DNA from: an uncultured Cycloclasticus sp.
Lineage (GTDB): Bacteria > Pseudomonadota > Gammaproteobacteria > Methylococcales > Cycloclasticaceae
Direction: 5' to 3'
Assembly (NCBI GenBank): GCA_913060865.1
Contig: CAJXTU010000008.1
Coordinates: 1-64,000 of the forward strand
DNA length: 64,000 nucleotides
Shown: piece after piece, positions 41,844 to 48,693 of the stretch
Position numbering within the stretch: position 1 is the first letter of the stretch
Layout of the letters: each line of letters opens with the position of its first letter
The notes under the pieces: generated by a model
Seen by the model: only the letters and a program-made list of their open reading frames with translations
What the model was told of the DNA's origin: nothing
Databases searched by the model: none
Position numbers and translations under genes: made by a program

Positions 41844-44483
41844 TTACTCAAGGTCTGTTCTCTCTTGCTCTGTTTGGCTAAGTAATTTGCCTGAATTATT
41901 ATCATCCGTGCCGTAATAAATGACCTGTGGCTCAGAATAATTAGGGACGTCATCATAACTGAAGGCGGCATAGTATTTTGAAATTTTGTTAGAACCAAAA
42001 CTATCGTAGGTGTAGTTATCTGCACCGGCATAAAGTTTAACGCCATCATAAGGTGAACGAGGCGGGCGAAATCTATTGCGTACGATGTAGGTACCAACAA
42101 ATGCTTCAGTTTGTGGGTTGACCCATGTCAATTTAACCAATCCATTTTCGTTCGTTGTTTTTAAATGAGTGACCGGTGAAGTTGGTTTTTTACGACGTTT
42201 GATATATTTAATGATTAATTTGACTTCATTTTTGTGCCCTGCCTCGTGCCAATTAATTAATTTCGCATAAGACTCTGATTCAGATGTAGCTCGAATAACA
42301 AAGGCAGCCGTTTCATTAGATTGGTGTTTTTCCTCAAGCGTTAATTTGCTGTAGTGGTCAAAAATAAAATATTGTTTTTGTTTGCTAATAAGGTCTTGAG
42401 TGGTTGCTTCATAGCCAACATATTCAATATTTTTACGGTTTCTGACGTCAGAATAACTAATAGCTTTCATATCAATGAATTCAACATTGAAACAAATATC
42501 ATGGCCGTTGGGTGGCGTGTTTTTGTTTTGCAAACAGATAAAGGCTTCGGTGATAACCGTTTCTTCAGGGTTCGGTAAGCTATAGAGGTTAAACTCCATA
42601 TAGCCATATGTTTTACCATCATTTTCACTAAACCCTGACTGTAATTGGTTCTCGACAACGCCTTTTTTTGACAAGCTGCACAAACGTGTAGGAGATAAGC
42701 TTATTTCAGTCTCAGGAACGGTATAAATAATGTCAAGATGGGGGCGATAATGTATGCCACCACCGAATTTACCGTAGCCAATGTCAAACTGCATCATTTG
42801 TGAATCACGTCCCAGTGGGAGCGTTTTCGGGCCGTCAATACGGAACAGGACCGAACGTTTAGCTAAGTTTGATTCGAGTATTCGACATTCATGAGCGGTG
42901 AAGGTCCAATGACTCCATATTCCCTGCGTTAAGGCATCTGAGCGAATGGTTTGACCCAAGGTTTCGATACTCTCAGCTTGCTCGATGTGATCAAAGTCTG
43001 TCAGGTCAGCGACGCTGTCTTGTTCTAAAATAGAGATGGACCAGTCACCGAATTTTTCAATTTTTGCGGCTACGCGGTTCATGGGGTATAAAGAGGCTCT
43101 TGCAAACTTTATGGTTGCGTTTTCTGGTATGTTGTCTAGGCTAAACTCTAGAACACCGGTACAGATACCTTTAGACTGATTTATGCCAATAAATAACGAG
43201 TTGTGGCCGAAATGTTGGCGATTTTGTTCGCCGGTAAACTCGCCGACATAGCCTGCTTGGGTTTTACTGGGGAAGAGAACTCTGGAAAACTCATTATGCT
43301 CTAATAAAGTTCGTAAGCGTATTTTGGTTGCAAAAGGCGACTTTATTTTACTAAGGCGGTTAACGGCTCGAATGTAGTAAAAATACATGGTGCCACTGGT
43401 TAACTCTACATCTGTAAAGCGTTGCGCATGTGTAACACCGACTAAATTACCCTCTGTACACGCTTGTTTATTTTTAGTATTTCGGTAAATTTCAAAATAA
43501 ATATCCTTATTTTCTTCATAGTTCCAGGTGATAGAAGCGGACCTACTTTCAATGTTGAGTATATTGAGCTCAGTAATACGTTTGGGCGCTAGGGGTGAGT
43601 AATTAACCGCCTCGCTAAGCGCATATTGTATCGCTGGAATATTCTCATGGATCGATTCGGTCATATTTTGCATATAATCGGGAATATTACGTGTGCCAAC
43701 CTCTACCACGGTCGCAAGAATGCCTCGGCTATAATAGTATTCTCGCCCGCTTCCGCCGACTAGATTAGTGGGGGGCTTGCCCCGGTGAATGCCATATTTA
43801 CGGCCAGTTACCTTATAAATTTTTCTTGCCATATTGGCACACAGCATATTTAAATCAGTCCCCTCGGGTTCTGCTTCATGACTAAATTTATGGGCAGGAA
43901 AAAAAACATTACCTTGAGAGTGATAGTCTAAAGCGATGGTGATATTTTCATGGCTATCAACAAACTGTTTAATGGCTTGCGTTTCAGGCTCACTAAAAGC
44001 TTTGGGTCCGCTATAAACGTTTGACGAGGTGTTTTTTGACCCTGGAAAGCCATAACTAAAGTTACGATTAAGGTCTACACCATAGGTGCCATCATGATTT
44101 AGACGACGATTTTTTCGCCAGAACGAGAAGTGCTTCATTGAATATTCAAACCCATCAGGGTTTAAGCAAGGAACCATGTATAGGGTATTGCTGTTTAATA
44201 TATCAATTAGCTGTGGGTTGTACTCATAGTTATCGACCACGTATTCAATAAATTTAACCGCTAATTCGTTACCAATCCATTCGCGCGCATGGATAGTACC
44301 GGTATATAGCAAGGCAGGTTTTGATTCTGCATTATCTACATCGAAGGAGACCGTTATCAGCATAATGTCACGTTGTTCGTGCGTTTTCCCTATGCTTTGC
44401 ACTTTGAATAGATCAGGGTGTTCTGAAACAACTTGCTGTAAAAAGTGTTCCGTTTCTTGGTATGTCTTGTATTGTTTTTTCAC
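41844..44483 (-). CDS. M14 zinc carboxypeptidase with FN3 and beta-sandwich modules
   Basis: The 879-aa protein has an N-terminal M14 peptidase (about 5-300): zinc ligands His65 and Glu68 (HAREW), the DLNRNFSYG substrate segment, a third ligand in LDYHSQGN, and the catalytic Glu in VVEVGT. Then come a fibronectin type III-like domain (about 305-395), two beta-rich segments resembling DNRLRE-type sandwich modules (about 410-590 and 595-770), and a second FN3-like domain (about 780-870). No signal peptide is visible, which is unusual for such a multi-module enzyme. It likely trims C-terminal residues of peptides. It is 205 bp downstream of the ATP-grasp pair in the same direction. Confidence 0.85.
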   Translation of the reverse strand: MKKQYKTYQETEHFLQQVVSEHPDLFKVQSIGKTHEQRDIMLITVSFDVDNAESKPALLYTGTIHAREWIGNELAVKFIEYVVDNYEYNPQLIDILNSNTLYMVPCLNPDGFEYSMKHFSFWRKNRRLNHDGTYGVDLNRNFSYGFPGSKNTSSNVYSGPKAFSEPETQAIKQFVDSHENITIALDYHSQGNVFFPAHKFSHEAEPEGTDLNMLCANMARKIYKVTGRKYGIHRGKPPTNLVGGSGREYYYSRGILATVVEVGTRNIPDYMQNMTESIHENIPAIQYALSEAVNYSPLAPKRITELNILNIESRSASITWNYEENKDIYFEIYRNTKNKQACTEGNLVGVTHAQRFTDVELTSGTMYFYYIRAVNRLSKIKSPFATKIRLRTLLEHNEFSRVLFPSKTQAGYVGEFTGEQNRQHFGHNSLFIGINQSKGICTGVLEFSLDNIPENATIKFARASLYPMNRVAAKIEKFGDWSISILEQDSVADLTDFDHIEQAESIETLGQTIRSDALTQGIWSHWTFTAHECRILESNLAKRSVLFRIDGPKTLPLGRDSQMMQFDIGYGKFGGGIHYRPHLDIIYTVPETEISLSPTRLCSLSKKGVVENQLQSGFSENDGKTYGYMEFNLYSLPNPEETVITEAFICLQNKNTPPNGHDICFNVEFIDMKAISYSDVRNRKNIEYVGYEATTQDLISKQKQYFIFDHYSKLTLEEKHQSNETAAFVIRATSESESYAKLINWHEAGHKNEVKLIIKYIKRRKKPTSPVTHLKTTNENGLVKLTWVNPQTEAFVGTYIVRNRFRPPRSPYDGVKLYAGADNYTYDSFGSNKISKYYAAFSYDDVPNYSEPQVIYYGTDDNNSGKLLSQTEQERTDLE

Positions 44484-44634
44484 TGCGTTATGTTCTTATG
44501 AAAATAGTGATGGTTCCCTCGGTTAAGGAAACCCGTTAAGTCGTTAAGGGTAAATTTTCAGCATAAAATGGAGCAATACTGAGGTTTAGAAAAAACTTAA
44601 ATTATAACAGGTGACTTTATAATCGGGTTGTTTC

Positions 44635-44669
44635 GTCCATACCACAATGATATTGGTTGAGGTATGGAC
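44635..44669 (-). terminator. Hairpin after the ATP-grasp/DUF1643 gene
   Basis: GTCCATACC and GGTATGGAC form a 9-bp perfect stem 20 bp past the stop codon. A T-run is lacking on the minus strand, so it may be a transcript-stabilising hairpin or partial terminator before the M14 gene. Confidence 0.5.
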
Positions 44670-44688
44670 GTTATAGATTGAGTCGGGT

Positions 44689-46338
44689 TTAGTTGTATGG
44701 GATAGCTGAAATATCATCCGCCAAGCCTTTGATGCTACGTGGCTGCTTTTTTGCGGTGAGGCGCAGGCACATTAACTGGGGCAGTAATTTTTTTACTTCG
44801 TCTGATCGTCCTTTAAAGGCGCCGTCGTTGCCCCATATAGCGATGACTTGGTCGGCTTGTTTGCTGCTGTCTGACAAACTGGCATTATTATAAGCTCCAA
44901 CGGGGTCATTGCATTCTTTCAGTTCAGCGATATTATTAGCTCGATAGGCGAACAGATTACCAATGATTATTCCACCATATCCCCAGTGTTTTGCATAAGC
45001 ACTACATTTTTTTATCAACGCATCGTCATGATCAGCATCCGCTGTTGAGGGGTGTAAGGCTATAAACATAATGCTGGGTTTTTTATCGTCCCAAGTACGA
45101 CTGAGTGTGTAGCGGTAAGTATCATCCGTTAGGGTTGTCGTGATCGACTTTGCCGTATGAATACTCACTTTGTTGGTTTCCTCTTGGTGAGTTGAGACCA
45201 CAGATTCAGTGTTGGACGCTTTCTTGGTGATATTTTTATTGGTGATGTTTTTTTTGCGACCTATATTGTCCTGAAAATTCCAAATATCACTGGGCCATTC
45301 TTCTTGTTCATCATTATCATTGATCAACAACATCTCCGCAGCATCTGGCGTTTTTATCGATGCAAAGCAATCAGCATCAGAACTTGGCGTATATTTACCA
45401 AAGGTAATCTGGCGCATTGTTCTCAATAAAGAGCTGTCTATTTTTCCAAGCTGCTCCCAATTATTGATGGGTATATTTGGTTTTTTGAACTGCCCATTGC
45501 TAAATAACCACATCAAGTACTGTCCAATCCAATCTCGAATATAGGGGAATGCGGCAAAGGCTGTCGCACACTCTAATATTCGGTATTTTCCATCCTTACC
45601 AACGGCGATATCACAAGCCCAATATTCAGCTTTTGCAGCTTTGGAGACTTTTACTGCCAGATCGAGTACTTCTTTGGGTACATTCTGGTAATCCATGCTA
45701 CCGCCCTGGCTGGTATTGGTTAACCACTCCCCTTCTGGTGGGCGACGCCAGAACGCACACGCTGGCTTATGACCAATCAGCATGACACGGATATCTGCGG
45801 ACATGGGGATAAAATCTTGCACATAAACTGGGTTGTATTTTTTGCTATCCAATAGGTTTGTAGCTTCTTTAAAACTATCAACTTTGTGCACAAAATAACC
45901 CCCATAATTAGAGGGGCCATAGGACTTTTTGATGATTTTAGGGTAGCTTGTTTTTTTTAAAAAGCTATCGGCTTTTTTTCGGTCATAAAAAATATTGGTT
46001 GGTGGTATAGGAATATCATATTTTTTACAGAACCGCGTGACGTTTTCTTTAGATTTATTAGAAAACTGAGTATCTAGAGAGGGTACAAGCCGAACCTCTG
46101 GCAATGCATTAGCAATCTCTCGAAAGGTTTCATAAGCTGTCGCGGGAACGTTGCCAATCAATACATCAATTTTTTTTGCTTTAACGTCATTAATAAAGCG
46201 CTGTTTATCATTTTTCCAATGGTAAGTGACCGTCTCAATTTTATCTGGCCAACCTTTAAAATTAGATTTATTAAAAAATTGCATAACATAATCCATATAC
46301 AGCAAACCTAGCTTTGGACGTTTTTGTTTCTTAGTCAT
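44689..46338 (-). CDS. ATP-grasp protein fused to a DUF1643 domain
   Basis: The 549-aa protein has a RimK-like ATP-grasp part (about 1-300: PKIIKKSYGPSNYGG loop, VYVQDFIPMSADIRVML, and an acidic ILECATAFAAFP end). A polar Asn/Lys/Thr linker follows (about 345-400). The C-terminal DUF1643 domain (about 410-545) has LSRTWDDKKPSIMFIALHPS, NLFAYRANNI and VIAIWGNDG. In ATP-grasp ligases the last metal site is usually E-x-N; here the residues are E-C-A, so the Asn is missing. The start ATG directly follows the upstream stop. DUF1643 has no established activity that I know of. Confidence 0.82.
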   Translation of the reverse strand: MTKKQKRPKLGLLYMDYVMQFFNKSNFKGWPDKIETVTYHWKNDKQRFINDVKAKKIDVLIGNVPATAYETFREIANALPEVRLVPSLDTQFSNKSKENVTRFCKKYDIPIPPTNIFYDRKKADSFLKKTSYPKIIKKSYGPSNYGGYFVHKVDSFKEATNLLDSKKYNPVYVQDFIPMSADIRVMLIGHKPACAFWRRPPEGEWLTNTSQGGSMDYQNVPKEVLDLAVKVSKAAKAEYWACDIAVGKDGKYRILECATAFAAFPYIRDWIGQYLMWLFSNGQFKKPNIPINNWEQLGKIDSSLLRTMRQITFGKYTPSSDADCFASIKTPDAAEMLLINDNDEQEEWPSDIWNFQDNIGRKKNITNKNITKKASNTESVVSTHQEETNKVSIHTAKSITTTLTDDTYRYTLSRTWDDKKPSIMFIALHPSTADADHDDALIKKCSAYAKHWGYGGIIIGNLFAYRANNIAELKECNDPVGAYNNASLSDSSKQADQVIAIWGNDGAFKGRSDEVKKLLPQLMCLRLTAKKQPRSIKGLADDISAIPYN

Positions 46339-47247
46339 TTATTTTCCTGTTACTCGTTTTTCTATCAGATTAACGATAGCATTGATTTTTTTGTCATTAA
46401 AATTCAGCCCAAGCTGTTCCTGATCGGGTGTTGCAAATGCAGGAATACCATTAACTTCCAAGACGACATACTGTTCTCGTTCTTGATCATAGATCATGTC
46501 GACACCCGCTAATTCTAAGCCGGTTAATTTGGCGGCTTTTTTAGCCAAGCTGATGAGTTCGTCTGTTGGTTCACGCAATAACAAGGTACCACCACTGGTG
46601 ATATTAGTTTTCCAGTCATCTGGTGGTGCTTTACGACCGTAACAACTGATAAATTCGCCGTCGACAATATCAACTCTGAAATCGGTGTTATCGTAATCAA
46701 TAAAACGTTCAACATAAAAATGCCGTAAATCAGTATGTTTTATAAAAGGTATCAGCATATCAAGGGCCGCATCATCTTCAATTTTAACTAACCCCATACC
46801 TCCCCAACCATCGGTTGGCTTGTAAATAATTTTGCCTCCCCATTCTTTTAAAATCCTGCGCAGTGTATGAACATCGTTACGATGACATAACTCATATTCA
46901 GGCGTTATGATGCCATTGCGTTGTAATAAATGAGCCGTTTTGAATTTATCTTCAGTTAAACTGAAGGAAGAATAGTTATTGATAATAGGAATATAGCGAT
47001 CAAGTGTTTCATATAGATACAGTTGATATTGTGTTTGCTGACCGGCATTGTAAGTGAAGAATAAATCTAATTCCTCCATTATGATGCCGCCACAATAAGT
47101 AGAGCCATTGGTCGCCGTGGCATTTCTTAGGTTAAGGTCGGTTATAACTGATATATCTCGCTCTTGTAACTTGGCGATCATTGAGTTTTGAATAACATCA
47201 CCACCACCGTTTTGATACATCCACATTCCGATTCTATGTGTTGGCAT
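46339..47247 (-). CDS. RimK-like ATP-grasp ligase
   Basis: From the ATG at 47247 (AGGA 9 nt upstream) the protein is 302 aa. It has the lid loop KPTDGWGGMG, YVERFIDYDNTDFRVD, the ELAGVDMIYD segment and an intact E-x-N metal site (VLEVNGIPAF). It should activate a carboxylate as acyl-phosphate and join it to an amine, as RimK-type amino-acid ligases do. A TTG ten codons further upstream (47277) is rejected for want of a ribosome site. It is immediately followed by the ATP-grasp/DUF1643 gene, so the two likely act on one product. Confidence 0.85.
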   Translation of the reverse strand: MPTHRIGMWMYQNGGGDVIQNSMIAKLQERDISVITDLNLRNATATNGSTYCGGIIMEELDLFFTYNAGQQTQYQLYLYETLDRYIPIINNYSSFSLTEDKFKTAHLLQRNGIITPEYELCHRNDVHTLRRILKEWGGKIIYKPTDGWGGMGLVKIEDDAALDMLIPFIKHTDLRHFYVERFIDYDNTDFRVDIVDGEFISCYGRKAPPDDWKTNITSGGTLLLREPTDELISLAKKAAKLTGLELAGVDMIYDQEREQYVVLEVNGIPAFATPDQEQLGLNFNDKKINAIVNLIEKRVTGK

Positions 47248-47577
47248 GTTCTTTAATCCTAACATTAATGAAGTCAATCACTTCTCAAGCAATATTAATA
47301 CCAAGTCTTTTATTGCTTGCAAAAGATACTCTAAAGTTCCTTTTGAATATACTGGTCGCACCATGTTAGGGCCTCTTTGCTGCAATCCAGGGCAGCAAAG
47401 GCGTTAAGGTCTAAAATTCATTTCTAGACGATTAAAAATACTATATATTGCTACGTAGTTCAGTTAACTTTAACTGATAACTTTTTCCGTTAGCTGTTTT
47501 TACACGTTATTGTGTTGACTCGATTTACTTAAATTTTAGGCCTTAGATAAGCCTTGATTTACACACTAGGTATTATT
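47248..47577. other. Divergent promoter region of the ATP-grasp and M20 genes
   Basis: These 330 bp separate the minus-strand ATP-grasp pair from the plus-strand M20 gene, so both promoters should lie here. A TTGACT at 47514-47519 could be a -35 for the M20 gene, but no matching -10 is convincing. I see no small gene. Confidence 0.5.
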
Positions 47578-48693
47578 ATGAGTACTGGTATGGATTTTTC
47601 TGAATTGGCGGACTTGATGAATATCAATTCATATACCAAAAATAAGCAAGGTGTTGATCAAAGCGGTTTGTTGTTTCAGCAATGGATGGAAGATATTGGA
47701 TACGATACGCGTACTTATCAGCGAGAAACAATAGGTAATCATCTGCTATTCACCTCCGCTAAATCAGCGGGTAAAAAACTGCTGTTGTTGGGTCATTTAG
47801 ATACGGTTTTTCCACCCATGAGTTTTGAAACCTTCAGCGAGGATGACCAGTGGATCTATGGGCCAGGTGCTTGCGATATCAAAGGCGGCAATTACGTTGC
47901 GCTATGCGCATTAAGAGCGGTCAAGGCATCTTCTGGTAGCATTGGTAATATCGACATGCTATTGGTTAGCGATGAAGAAACAGGCAGTGATGACTCCAAG
48001 CTTATTAGTCATGAACTCGCCAAGGATTATGACTACGTGATGGTGTTTGAAGCCGCAGGTAAAAATAATGAACTGGTCATTGGGCGTAAAGGGGTTGGTA
48101 CCTTTTTTATTGATATTGAAGGAAAAGCTGCACATGCGGGTAATCATTATATTGATGGGGTTAATGCCAACTTAGAAGCCGCACATAAATGCATTCAGTT
48201 AACCGCACTGACTCAGTTAGACAAAGGTACAACCATTAACGTTGGCAAAATGGAAGGTGGTATTGGTGCAAATACAATCTCGCCCCATGCCCGTTTGATT
48301 GTTGAAATGCGCTACACCGACGCTACAGAAAGAGATCGAGTGCTTGACGCAATACATTCAATCGTTCACTCCCATGAGATTGAAGGTATTGAAGCGACAT
48401 TGTCGGGGGGGATTCAACGAGATGTGATGCAGCCCAATAATGAACAGTTGGTTTTTTTGCGGGAGTTAGAATCCATTACCGGCGAACCATTTTTAACTGA
48501 ACAACGTGGTGGTGTTAGCGATGCCAATATTTTCGCTGCCAAAGGTTGTGTGACCTTAGATGGATTTGGCCCTTTTGGAGACGGAGACCATACCATCCAT
48601 GAACGCGCCAGCAAACATAGTTTTATGCTTCGTGTTGAACAAGTGACAAAGATTTTATCTTATTACAATCAAGGCCTAATGACAGAAGCTTGA
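47578..48693 (+). CDS. M20 family metallopeptidase (glutamate-carboxypeptidase-like)
   Basis: From ATG 47578 the protein is 371 aa. It has GHLDTVF with a zinc-binding His-x-Asp, GPGACDIKGG with the bridging Asp, SDEETGS with the catalytic Glu pair, a dimerisation/lid domain (GKAAHAGNHY at about residue 185) and a late HTIHERAS His ligand. This matches carboxypeptidase G2-like M20 enzymes, which release C-terminal acidic residues. A TTG eight codons upstream (47554) would give a longer form but has no ribosome site. It is divergent from the ATP-grasp genes. Confidence 0.88.
   Translation: MSTGMDFSELADLMNINSYTKNKQGVDQSGLLFQQWMEDIGYDTRTYQRETIGNHLLFTSAKSAGKKLLLLGHLDTVFPPMSFETFSEDDQWIYGPGACDIKGGNYVALCALRAVKASSGSIGNIDMLLVSDEETGSDDSKLISHELAKDYDYVMVFEAAGKNNELVIGRKGVGTFFIDIEGKAAHAGNHYIDGVNANLEAAHKCIQLTALTQLDKGTTINVGKMEGGIGANTISPHARLIVEMRYTDATERDRVLDAIHSIVHSHEIEGIEATLSGGIQRDVMQPNNEQLVFLRELESITGEPFLTEQRGGVSDANIFAAKGCVTLDGFGPFGDGDHTIHERASKHSFMLRVEQVTKILSYYNQGLMTEA

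Follow-up and report, generated by a model that had tools for sequence, protein, structure and literature searches.

A conserved cassette of two ATP-grasp ligases and two metallopeptidases in Cycloclasticus and other bacteria: a candidate system for building and trimming acidic C-terminal residues

A four-gene locus in an uncultured Cycloclasticus

The window analyzed in this study, a stretch of 64,000 bp from an uncultured Cycloclasticus sp. of the Gammaproteobacteria (positions 1 to 64,000 of contig CAJXTU010000008.1, assembly GCA_913060865.1), harbors four genes between positions 41844 and 48693 that encode two ATP-grasp ligases, designated here G1 and G2, a metallocarboxypeptidase of family M14 and a metallopeptidase of family M20 (Table 1). 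All four genes are open at these positions. A preliminary description of this DNA had reported an adjacent ATP-grasp pair, one member of which is fused to a DUF1643 domain, together with a co-directional M14 enzyme with extra modules and a divergent M20 enzyme, and had proposed that their products add and remove residues on a common target; this gene content was confirmed by the open reading frames (ORFs) and their Pfam matches.

G1 and G2 abut each other (0 bp), and the gap between G2 and the M14 gene is 205 bp in the window, compared with a median of 28 bp across the homologous loci. Judging from homologue lengths and upstream sequence, the annotated starts of G1 and of the M20 gene are probably too early, the likelier start codons being the ATG at 47247 for G1 and the ATG at 47578 or 47590 for the M20 gene. 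An Rfam scan of the locus returned nothing except the neighboring tRNA.

Table 1. Positions of the cassette genes, their domains and the divergent intergenic region in the window
Feature	Position	Strand	Remarks
M14 metallocarboxypeptidase	41844..44483	-	879 aa; Peptidase_M14 1.8e-58, weak fn3 (Pfam)
M14 catalytic domain	43593-44483	-	residues 1-297, followed by ~570 residues of beta modules
M14 beta modules	C-terminal to catalytic domain	-	fn3-like, two jelly-roll/DNRLRE-like regions, terminal fn3-like
G2, LysX/ArgX-like ATP-grasp ligase with C-terminal DUF1643	44689..46338	-	ligase part, residues 1-310; RimK 6e-14, DUF1643 1e-38 (Pfam)
DUF1643 domain of G2	44737-45114	-	Pfam 1e-38
G1, RimK-like ATP-grasp ligase	46339..47277	-	RimK 2.9e-17 (Pfam)
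G1/M20 divergent intergenic region	47278..47553	.	276 bp; presumably regulates both genes; no small ORF conserved
M20 metallopeptidase, carboxypeptidase G2-like, divergent	47554..48693	+	Peptidase_M20 3.3e-17 plus M20_dimer (Pfam)

Conservation of the cassette across bacteria

When G1 was used to query 84,980 species genomes, 86 loci were confirmed, 80 of which were kept (54-87% identity). The carriers belong to Campylobacterota, Gammaproteobacteria, other Pseudomonadota and Desulfuromonadia, and thus to at least three phyla, with the nearest named relative of the window locus found in an uncultured Cycloclasticus (L021). The gene order M20-G1-G2-M14 is present in 54 of the 80 loci, the M20 gene being divergent in 33 of them, as in the window, and co-directional in the other 21. 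G1 is adjoined by M20 in 75 loci, by M14 in 71 and by G2 in approximately 62. The flanks, in contrast, consist of lineage-specific housekeeping genes (rplS/trmD, argG, gapA/pgk, mutM and others); since they differ by lineage, no fifth gene is conserved across the 80 loci compared, and neither a transporter, an exporter nor a regulator recurs among them. The arrangement is not due to chance. Two patterns would speak against a common role of the four genes, namely their presence together in a single strain and unrelated conserved neighbors of each gene elsewhere; the unit is instead kept across phyla while its flanks vary.

Among the genomes that carry the cassette, the hosts can be described as sulphur- and sea-dwelling bacteria, and the named carriers include Pseudoalteromonas, Paraglaciecola and Poseidonibacter, which are marine genera.

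The families also co-occur in genomes that were not selected for the cassette. In 150 Campylobacterota genomes, G1 was found in 15, M14 in 14 and the cassette-type M20 (E < 1e-150) in 16, whereas 14 genomes had G2 and one more had a broken remnant of it; all four were present in 14 genomes, and M14 never occurred without G2. Among 398 Pseudomonadota genomes, G2 and M14 were found in the identical five, with G1 also present in those loci that were read. The co-occurrence of G2 and M14 has a Fisher p of 6e-20 in the former set and 1e-11 in the latter, values that ignore the relatedness of the genomes.

Many Sulfurimonas loci lack G2 in the cassette. Most of these genomes carry G2 elsewhere, often directly after efp, indicating that functional coupling persists without linkage. 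In the Sulfurimonas-type loci L102-L109, a lone G2 stands directly behind efp (elongation factor P), in some cases with dnaE on its other flank, and M20-G1-M14 follows rplS; the position next to efp may be a coincidence of insertion site or a hint of a link to translation. The broken remnant mentioned above, a multi-stop G2 (L133, G097:C1:157116-157472), lies in a genome of the Campylobacterota in which G1, M14 and the cassette-type M20 gave no match, and apparently reflects decay following loss of the cassette. ATP-grasp proteins more remotely similar to G2 (E 1e-26 to 1e-29) were also observed in Desulfobacterota (L118-L122), where the gene neighborhoods are unrelated.

Transfer and selection

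In a FastTree phylogeny of the concatenated cassette proteins, the cassettes of Gammaproteobacteria group in a single supported clade nested among those of Campylobacterota, which suggests that the cassette passed from Campylobacterota to Gammaproteobacteria. Three of 18 Cycloclasticus genomes harbor it, and a blastn comparison of the window with the other two revealed no common flank around the cassette. Within the genus, the nonsynonymous divergence (dN) is 0.07-0.15 and the synonymous divergence (dS) is high or past saturation, a combination indicative of strong purifying selection. As the pairwise identities of the genes correlate only moderately with one another (0.42-0.75), we do not claim strict co-inheritance of all four genes.

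The two ATP-grasp ligases

The closest sequence to G1 in the PDB is RimK (3e-18), followed by LysX/ArgX, and the ATP- and Mg-binding residues of G1 are complete and invariant in 48 homologues. G1 matches the Pfam RimK domain and scores 122 bits against rimK_fam (cut-off 143), the RimK-like equivalog models also remaining under their cut-offs. For G2, LysX is the closest PDB sequence and ArgX with LysW/Glu is the closest fold; its motif WLTNTSQGG resembles WITNTARGG of LysX, and it scores 69 bits against LysX_arch (cut-off 276). Since neither protein passes a curated equivalog model, the two are classed as relatives, not members, of the RimK and LysX families. An extra copy of G1 is present in some loci (L040, L051, L068 and L070), which fits a stepwise ligation. 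A second ATP-grasp pair, of approximately 412 and 489 aa and 24-30% identical to G1, was observed elsewhere in the same genome as the cassette (G000:C11:70000-73484), and in G015 a counterpart of this pair lies approximately 15 kb from the cassette.

The DUF1643 fusion to which the preliminary description drew attention turned out not to belong to the core of the system. Its occurrence is confined to Cycloclasticus, with 2 instances among the 51 G2 homologues aligned and a further one in G015, and the usual tail of G2 is a helix-hairpin-helix (HhH) domain, matched by HHH_5 in 36 and by HHH_3 in 10 of the same 51 homologues; three other Pseudomonadota homologues are without any tail. By this distribution, DUF1643 is a lineage-specific replacement of the HhH tail. 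HhH domains usually bind nucleic acids, and by analogy the common tail hints at a nucleic-acid-associated target. The DUF1643 fold gave no meaningful PDB match in sequence or profile searches, and a possible link to uracil-DNA-glycosylase was considered but not established. Stand-alone DUF1643 genes were also observed in other Cycloclasticus genomes (G007 and G013), on plasmids and in phages; among the plasmid matches listed, the only one to the ATP-grasp part of G2 is on a 2.1-Mb Photobacterium replicon, and the rest match DUF1643 alone.

The two metallopeptidases

In an AlphaFold 2 model of the M14 enzyme (predicted local distance difference test score, 83.6), the fold of the catalytic domain is close to those of carboxypeptidases B, A4 and T (Z of approximately 32) and of procarboxypeptidase B (Z 32). 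The zinc ligands H65, E68 and H188, the substrate-binding N139-R140 and the catalytic E261 are invariant in 50 homologues; the protein thus has the HxxE...H motif, the catalytic Glu, the Asn-Arg pair and the fold of an M14 metallocarboxypeptidase. Neither a signal peptide nor a propeptide was found, the catalytic domain beginning at the N-terminus, which suggests that the enzyme should be cytosolic and constitutively active. The approximately 570 residues of beta modules are retained in all homologues, the DNRLRE match in this part being weak (1.3e-07, under the model cut-off).

Position 255 of carboxypeptidase A (CPA) determines S1' specificity. The corresponding residue 247 of the M14 enzyme, aligned with Ile255 of CPA-type (CPA4) and Asp255 of carboxypeptidase B (CPB)-type enzymes, is Arg in 49 of 50 homologues and Lys in one. 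With a basic residue at this position, the enzyme is predicted to remove C-terminal Glu or Asp, and by sequence it carries the basic S1' residue of an acidic-specific M14 enzyme of the carboxypeptidase O (CPO) kind. Both CPO, which favors acidic C-terminal residues, and a cytosolic acidic-specific class of M14 enzymes have been described (PMC6214572).

The closest PDB sequence to the M20 enzyme is carboxypeptidase G2 (CPG2; E 8e-43). Its metal ligands and R289 are invariant in 39 homologues, as are the positions aligned with N275, R288 and R324 of CPG2, which, together with K208, are pocket residues of that enzyme. The score against the NCBIfam glutamate carboxypeptidase model is under the cut-off. 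The substrate likely carries a carboxylate, with glutamate specificity being a candidate only.

In one genome (G246, L125:559-4290), M14 and M20 are fused in a 1243-aa open frame that contains both domains and no internal stop and lies beside G1-G2, which argues for the two peptidases acting together in the same compartment. M14 and M20 could by themselves make up a degradation pathway, and their fusion would also suit peptide scavenging, in which acidic peptides would be degraded for nutrition and the ligases would be unrelated, linked by chance or by shared regulation. However, the near-obligate co-occurrence with both ligases, even where G2 is unlinked, and the lack of a secretion signal and of a conserved transporter make scavenging very improbable.

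Search for an acceptor or a carrier

No substrate gene had been evident in the preliminary description, and a six-frame search of the intergenic and flanking DNA agreed with it: the small ORFs detected were restricted to single clades or were shadows of ribosomal operons, and none was conserved across lineages. In one Campylobacterales clade, small ORFs of 60-82 aa ending in FFEKLFS or FFAKLFS were observed between G2 and M14 (L022, L023 and L035), and another of approximately 66 aa was observed in L022-L024.

No LysW homologue was detected in 21 cassette-bearing genomes, the control genomes being positive. This result bears on a LysW-type carrier pathway, in which G2 would load an amino acid onto a small acidic carrier and a LysK-like M20 enzyme would release the product. 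Although G2 is nearest to LysX/ArgX and LysK is likewise an M20 enzyme, the missing carrier, the lack of a conserved small ORF nearby and the presence of an M14 enzyme, which has no role in that pathway, render such a pathway very improbable here. A locus for a graspetide-like ribosomally synthesized and post-translationally modified peptide, whose ribosomal precursor would be cross-linked by ATP-grasp enzymes and matured by peptidases, would account for a similar set of genes, as ATP-grasp enzymes and peptidases are known from such loci, some of which include metallopeptidases (PMC8939145). However, the ligases are RimK/LysX-like, not graspetide-ligase-like, and neither an exporter nor a precursor ORF is conserved across lineages; the latter led us to reject the assignment to the graspetides, which we regard as hardly probable at all.

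PADLOC returned no defence-protein match for any of the four proteins, and the cassette is not classed as an anti-phage defence system. M14 was not found in viral contigs in a pattern scan.

Proposed function of the cassette

The analysis demonstrates which genes the locus contains, that they are kept as a unit and co-occur, that the peptidases can be fused and that the catalytic residues are conserved. The four genes almost certainly constitute one pathway, a recurrent functional unit for the addition and removal of residues that are probably acidic. The proposal of a single system thus stands with regard to the unit itself, which is conserved across phyla amid unrelated flanks; no acceptor is encoded in it, and its activity is predicted from sequence. 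It has also become sharper, as both peptidases appear to point to acidic C-terminal residues and all members appear to be cytosolic.

From these data we infer the activity of the enzymes, their acidic specificity, the direction of the reactions and a shared acceptor, and we see about an even chance that the products form a self-contained cytosolic four-enzyme module that would build and trim acidic C-terminal residues on one acceptor. The RimK-like G1 and the LysX/ArgX-like G2 would form amide bonds at the expense of ATP, adding amino acids (glutamate or other acidic residues being the likeliest) stepwise at the carboxyl end of the acceptor; M14 would strip C-terminal Glu or Asp from the product, and the glutamate-carboxypeptidase-like M20 would act on this same short acidic peptide or on the released one. 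A molecule already present in the host cells, and not encoded by the cassette, would serve as the acceptor.

Several observations weigh against this module. In each of the 51 G2 homologues, ECA stands in place of the usual metal-site motif E-x-N, with the loss of one metal ligand, and the activity of G2 might be altered or absent. The M14 model is of low confidence around the S1' residues 235-244, so that the assignment of Arg247 rests on sequence alignment, and Tyr248 of CPA is not conserved in the M14 homologues. In the M20 enzyme, the position of CPG2 K208 is occupied by an invariant Glu173, and the specificity may differ from that of CPG2. Finally, the cassette encodes no substrate gene.

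Because G2 usually has an HhH tail and M14 carries its long array of binding-type beta modules, we place roughly half of our expectation on a protein or nucleoprotein-associated peptide as the acceptor; a small metabolite is somewhat less probable. The latter possibility overlaps with an alternative explanation of the whole cassette, namely a dedicated pathway for both the biosynthesis and the turnover of a short, soluble acidic peptide or of a peptidyl metabolite, similar to a compatible solute or a cofactor, in which G1 and G2 would join free amino acids in sequence and M14 and M20 would mature or recycle the product. The operons for N-acetylglutaminylglutamine amide, which pair ligases with a peptidase, provide an analogy. 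A self-contained cassette that has no encoded acceptor and appears to have moved between phyla, the additional ligase copies in some loci, the small substrates of M20/CPG2 relatives and the many marine genera among the named carriers would all be consistent with a metabolite; however, the HhH tail of G2 and the beta modules of M14 would be odd for small-molecule enzymes, and neither a transporter nor a regulator is conserved alongside. We consider this alternative tenable, at a probability well short of even.

Comparison with known systems

No description of the M20-G1-G2-M14 set was found in the literature compared, to which the main 2009 ATP-grasp survey did not belong. The general kind of system, linked peptide ligases with peptidases, is already known. 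One paper, citing an earlier survey by Iyer, Burroughs and Aravind, describes linked peptide ligases that act in succession within conserved gene neighborhoods (PMC4431377), and the cassette shares this general idea; a related paper that was searched makes no mention of M14 or M20. The near-constant pairing of ligases and peptidases points to a reversible peptide modification or to a new peptide metabolite without a known product. The cassette is compact and present in culturable marine genera (Pseudoalteromonas and Poseidonibacter), it offers a sharp prediction, i.e., acidic C-terminal residues, and ready-made constructs are available in the fused M14-M20 protein and in the naturally exchanged domain of G2.

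RimABK, which is responsible for polyglutamylation of RpsF, resembles the cassette in combining an ATP-grasp glutamate ligase, the closest PDB relative of G1, with a protease partner. RimB is a retropepsin-like protease and the target of RimK is RpsF (PMC11957791, PMC4741518); the cassette differs in its M14 and M20 enzymes, in having two ligases instead of one and in lacking such a defined target. LysW-dependent lysine/arginine biosynthesis follows a similar logic of ATP-grasp and M20 enzymes (LysX/ArgX and LysK), but the cassette, in addition to lacking the LysW carrier, contains M14 and a second, RimK-like ligase.

In the tubulin code, TTLL ATP-grasp glutamylases write and M14 cytosolic carboxypeptidases (CCPs) erase acidic C-terminal residues. 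The cassette differs in that it is bacterial, has no tubulin and contains an extra M20 enzyme and a second ligase, and in that its M14 enzyme is CPA/B/T-like by fold instead of being an established CCP. The likeness lies in the predicted cytosolic combination of an ATP-grasp writer with an M14 eraser of acidic C-termini. By this analogy, the cassette could be the bacterial equivalent of such a code, a horizontally mobile unit through which a nucleic-acid-associated cellular protein would reversibly receive acidic residues at its C-terminus; G2 would dock by means of its HhH (or DUF1643) tail, and M14 and M20 would serve as erasers. We regard this possibility as unlikely on balance.

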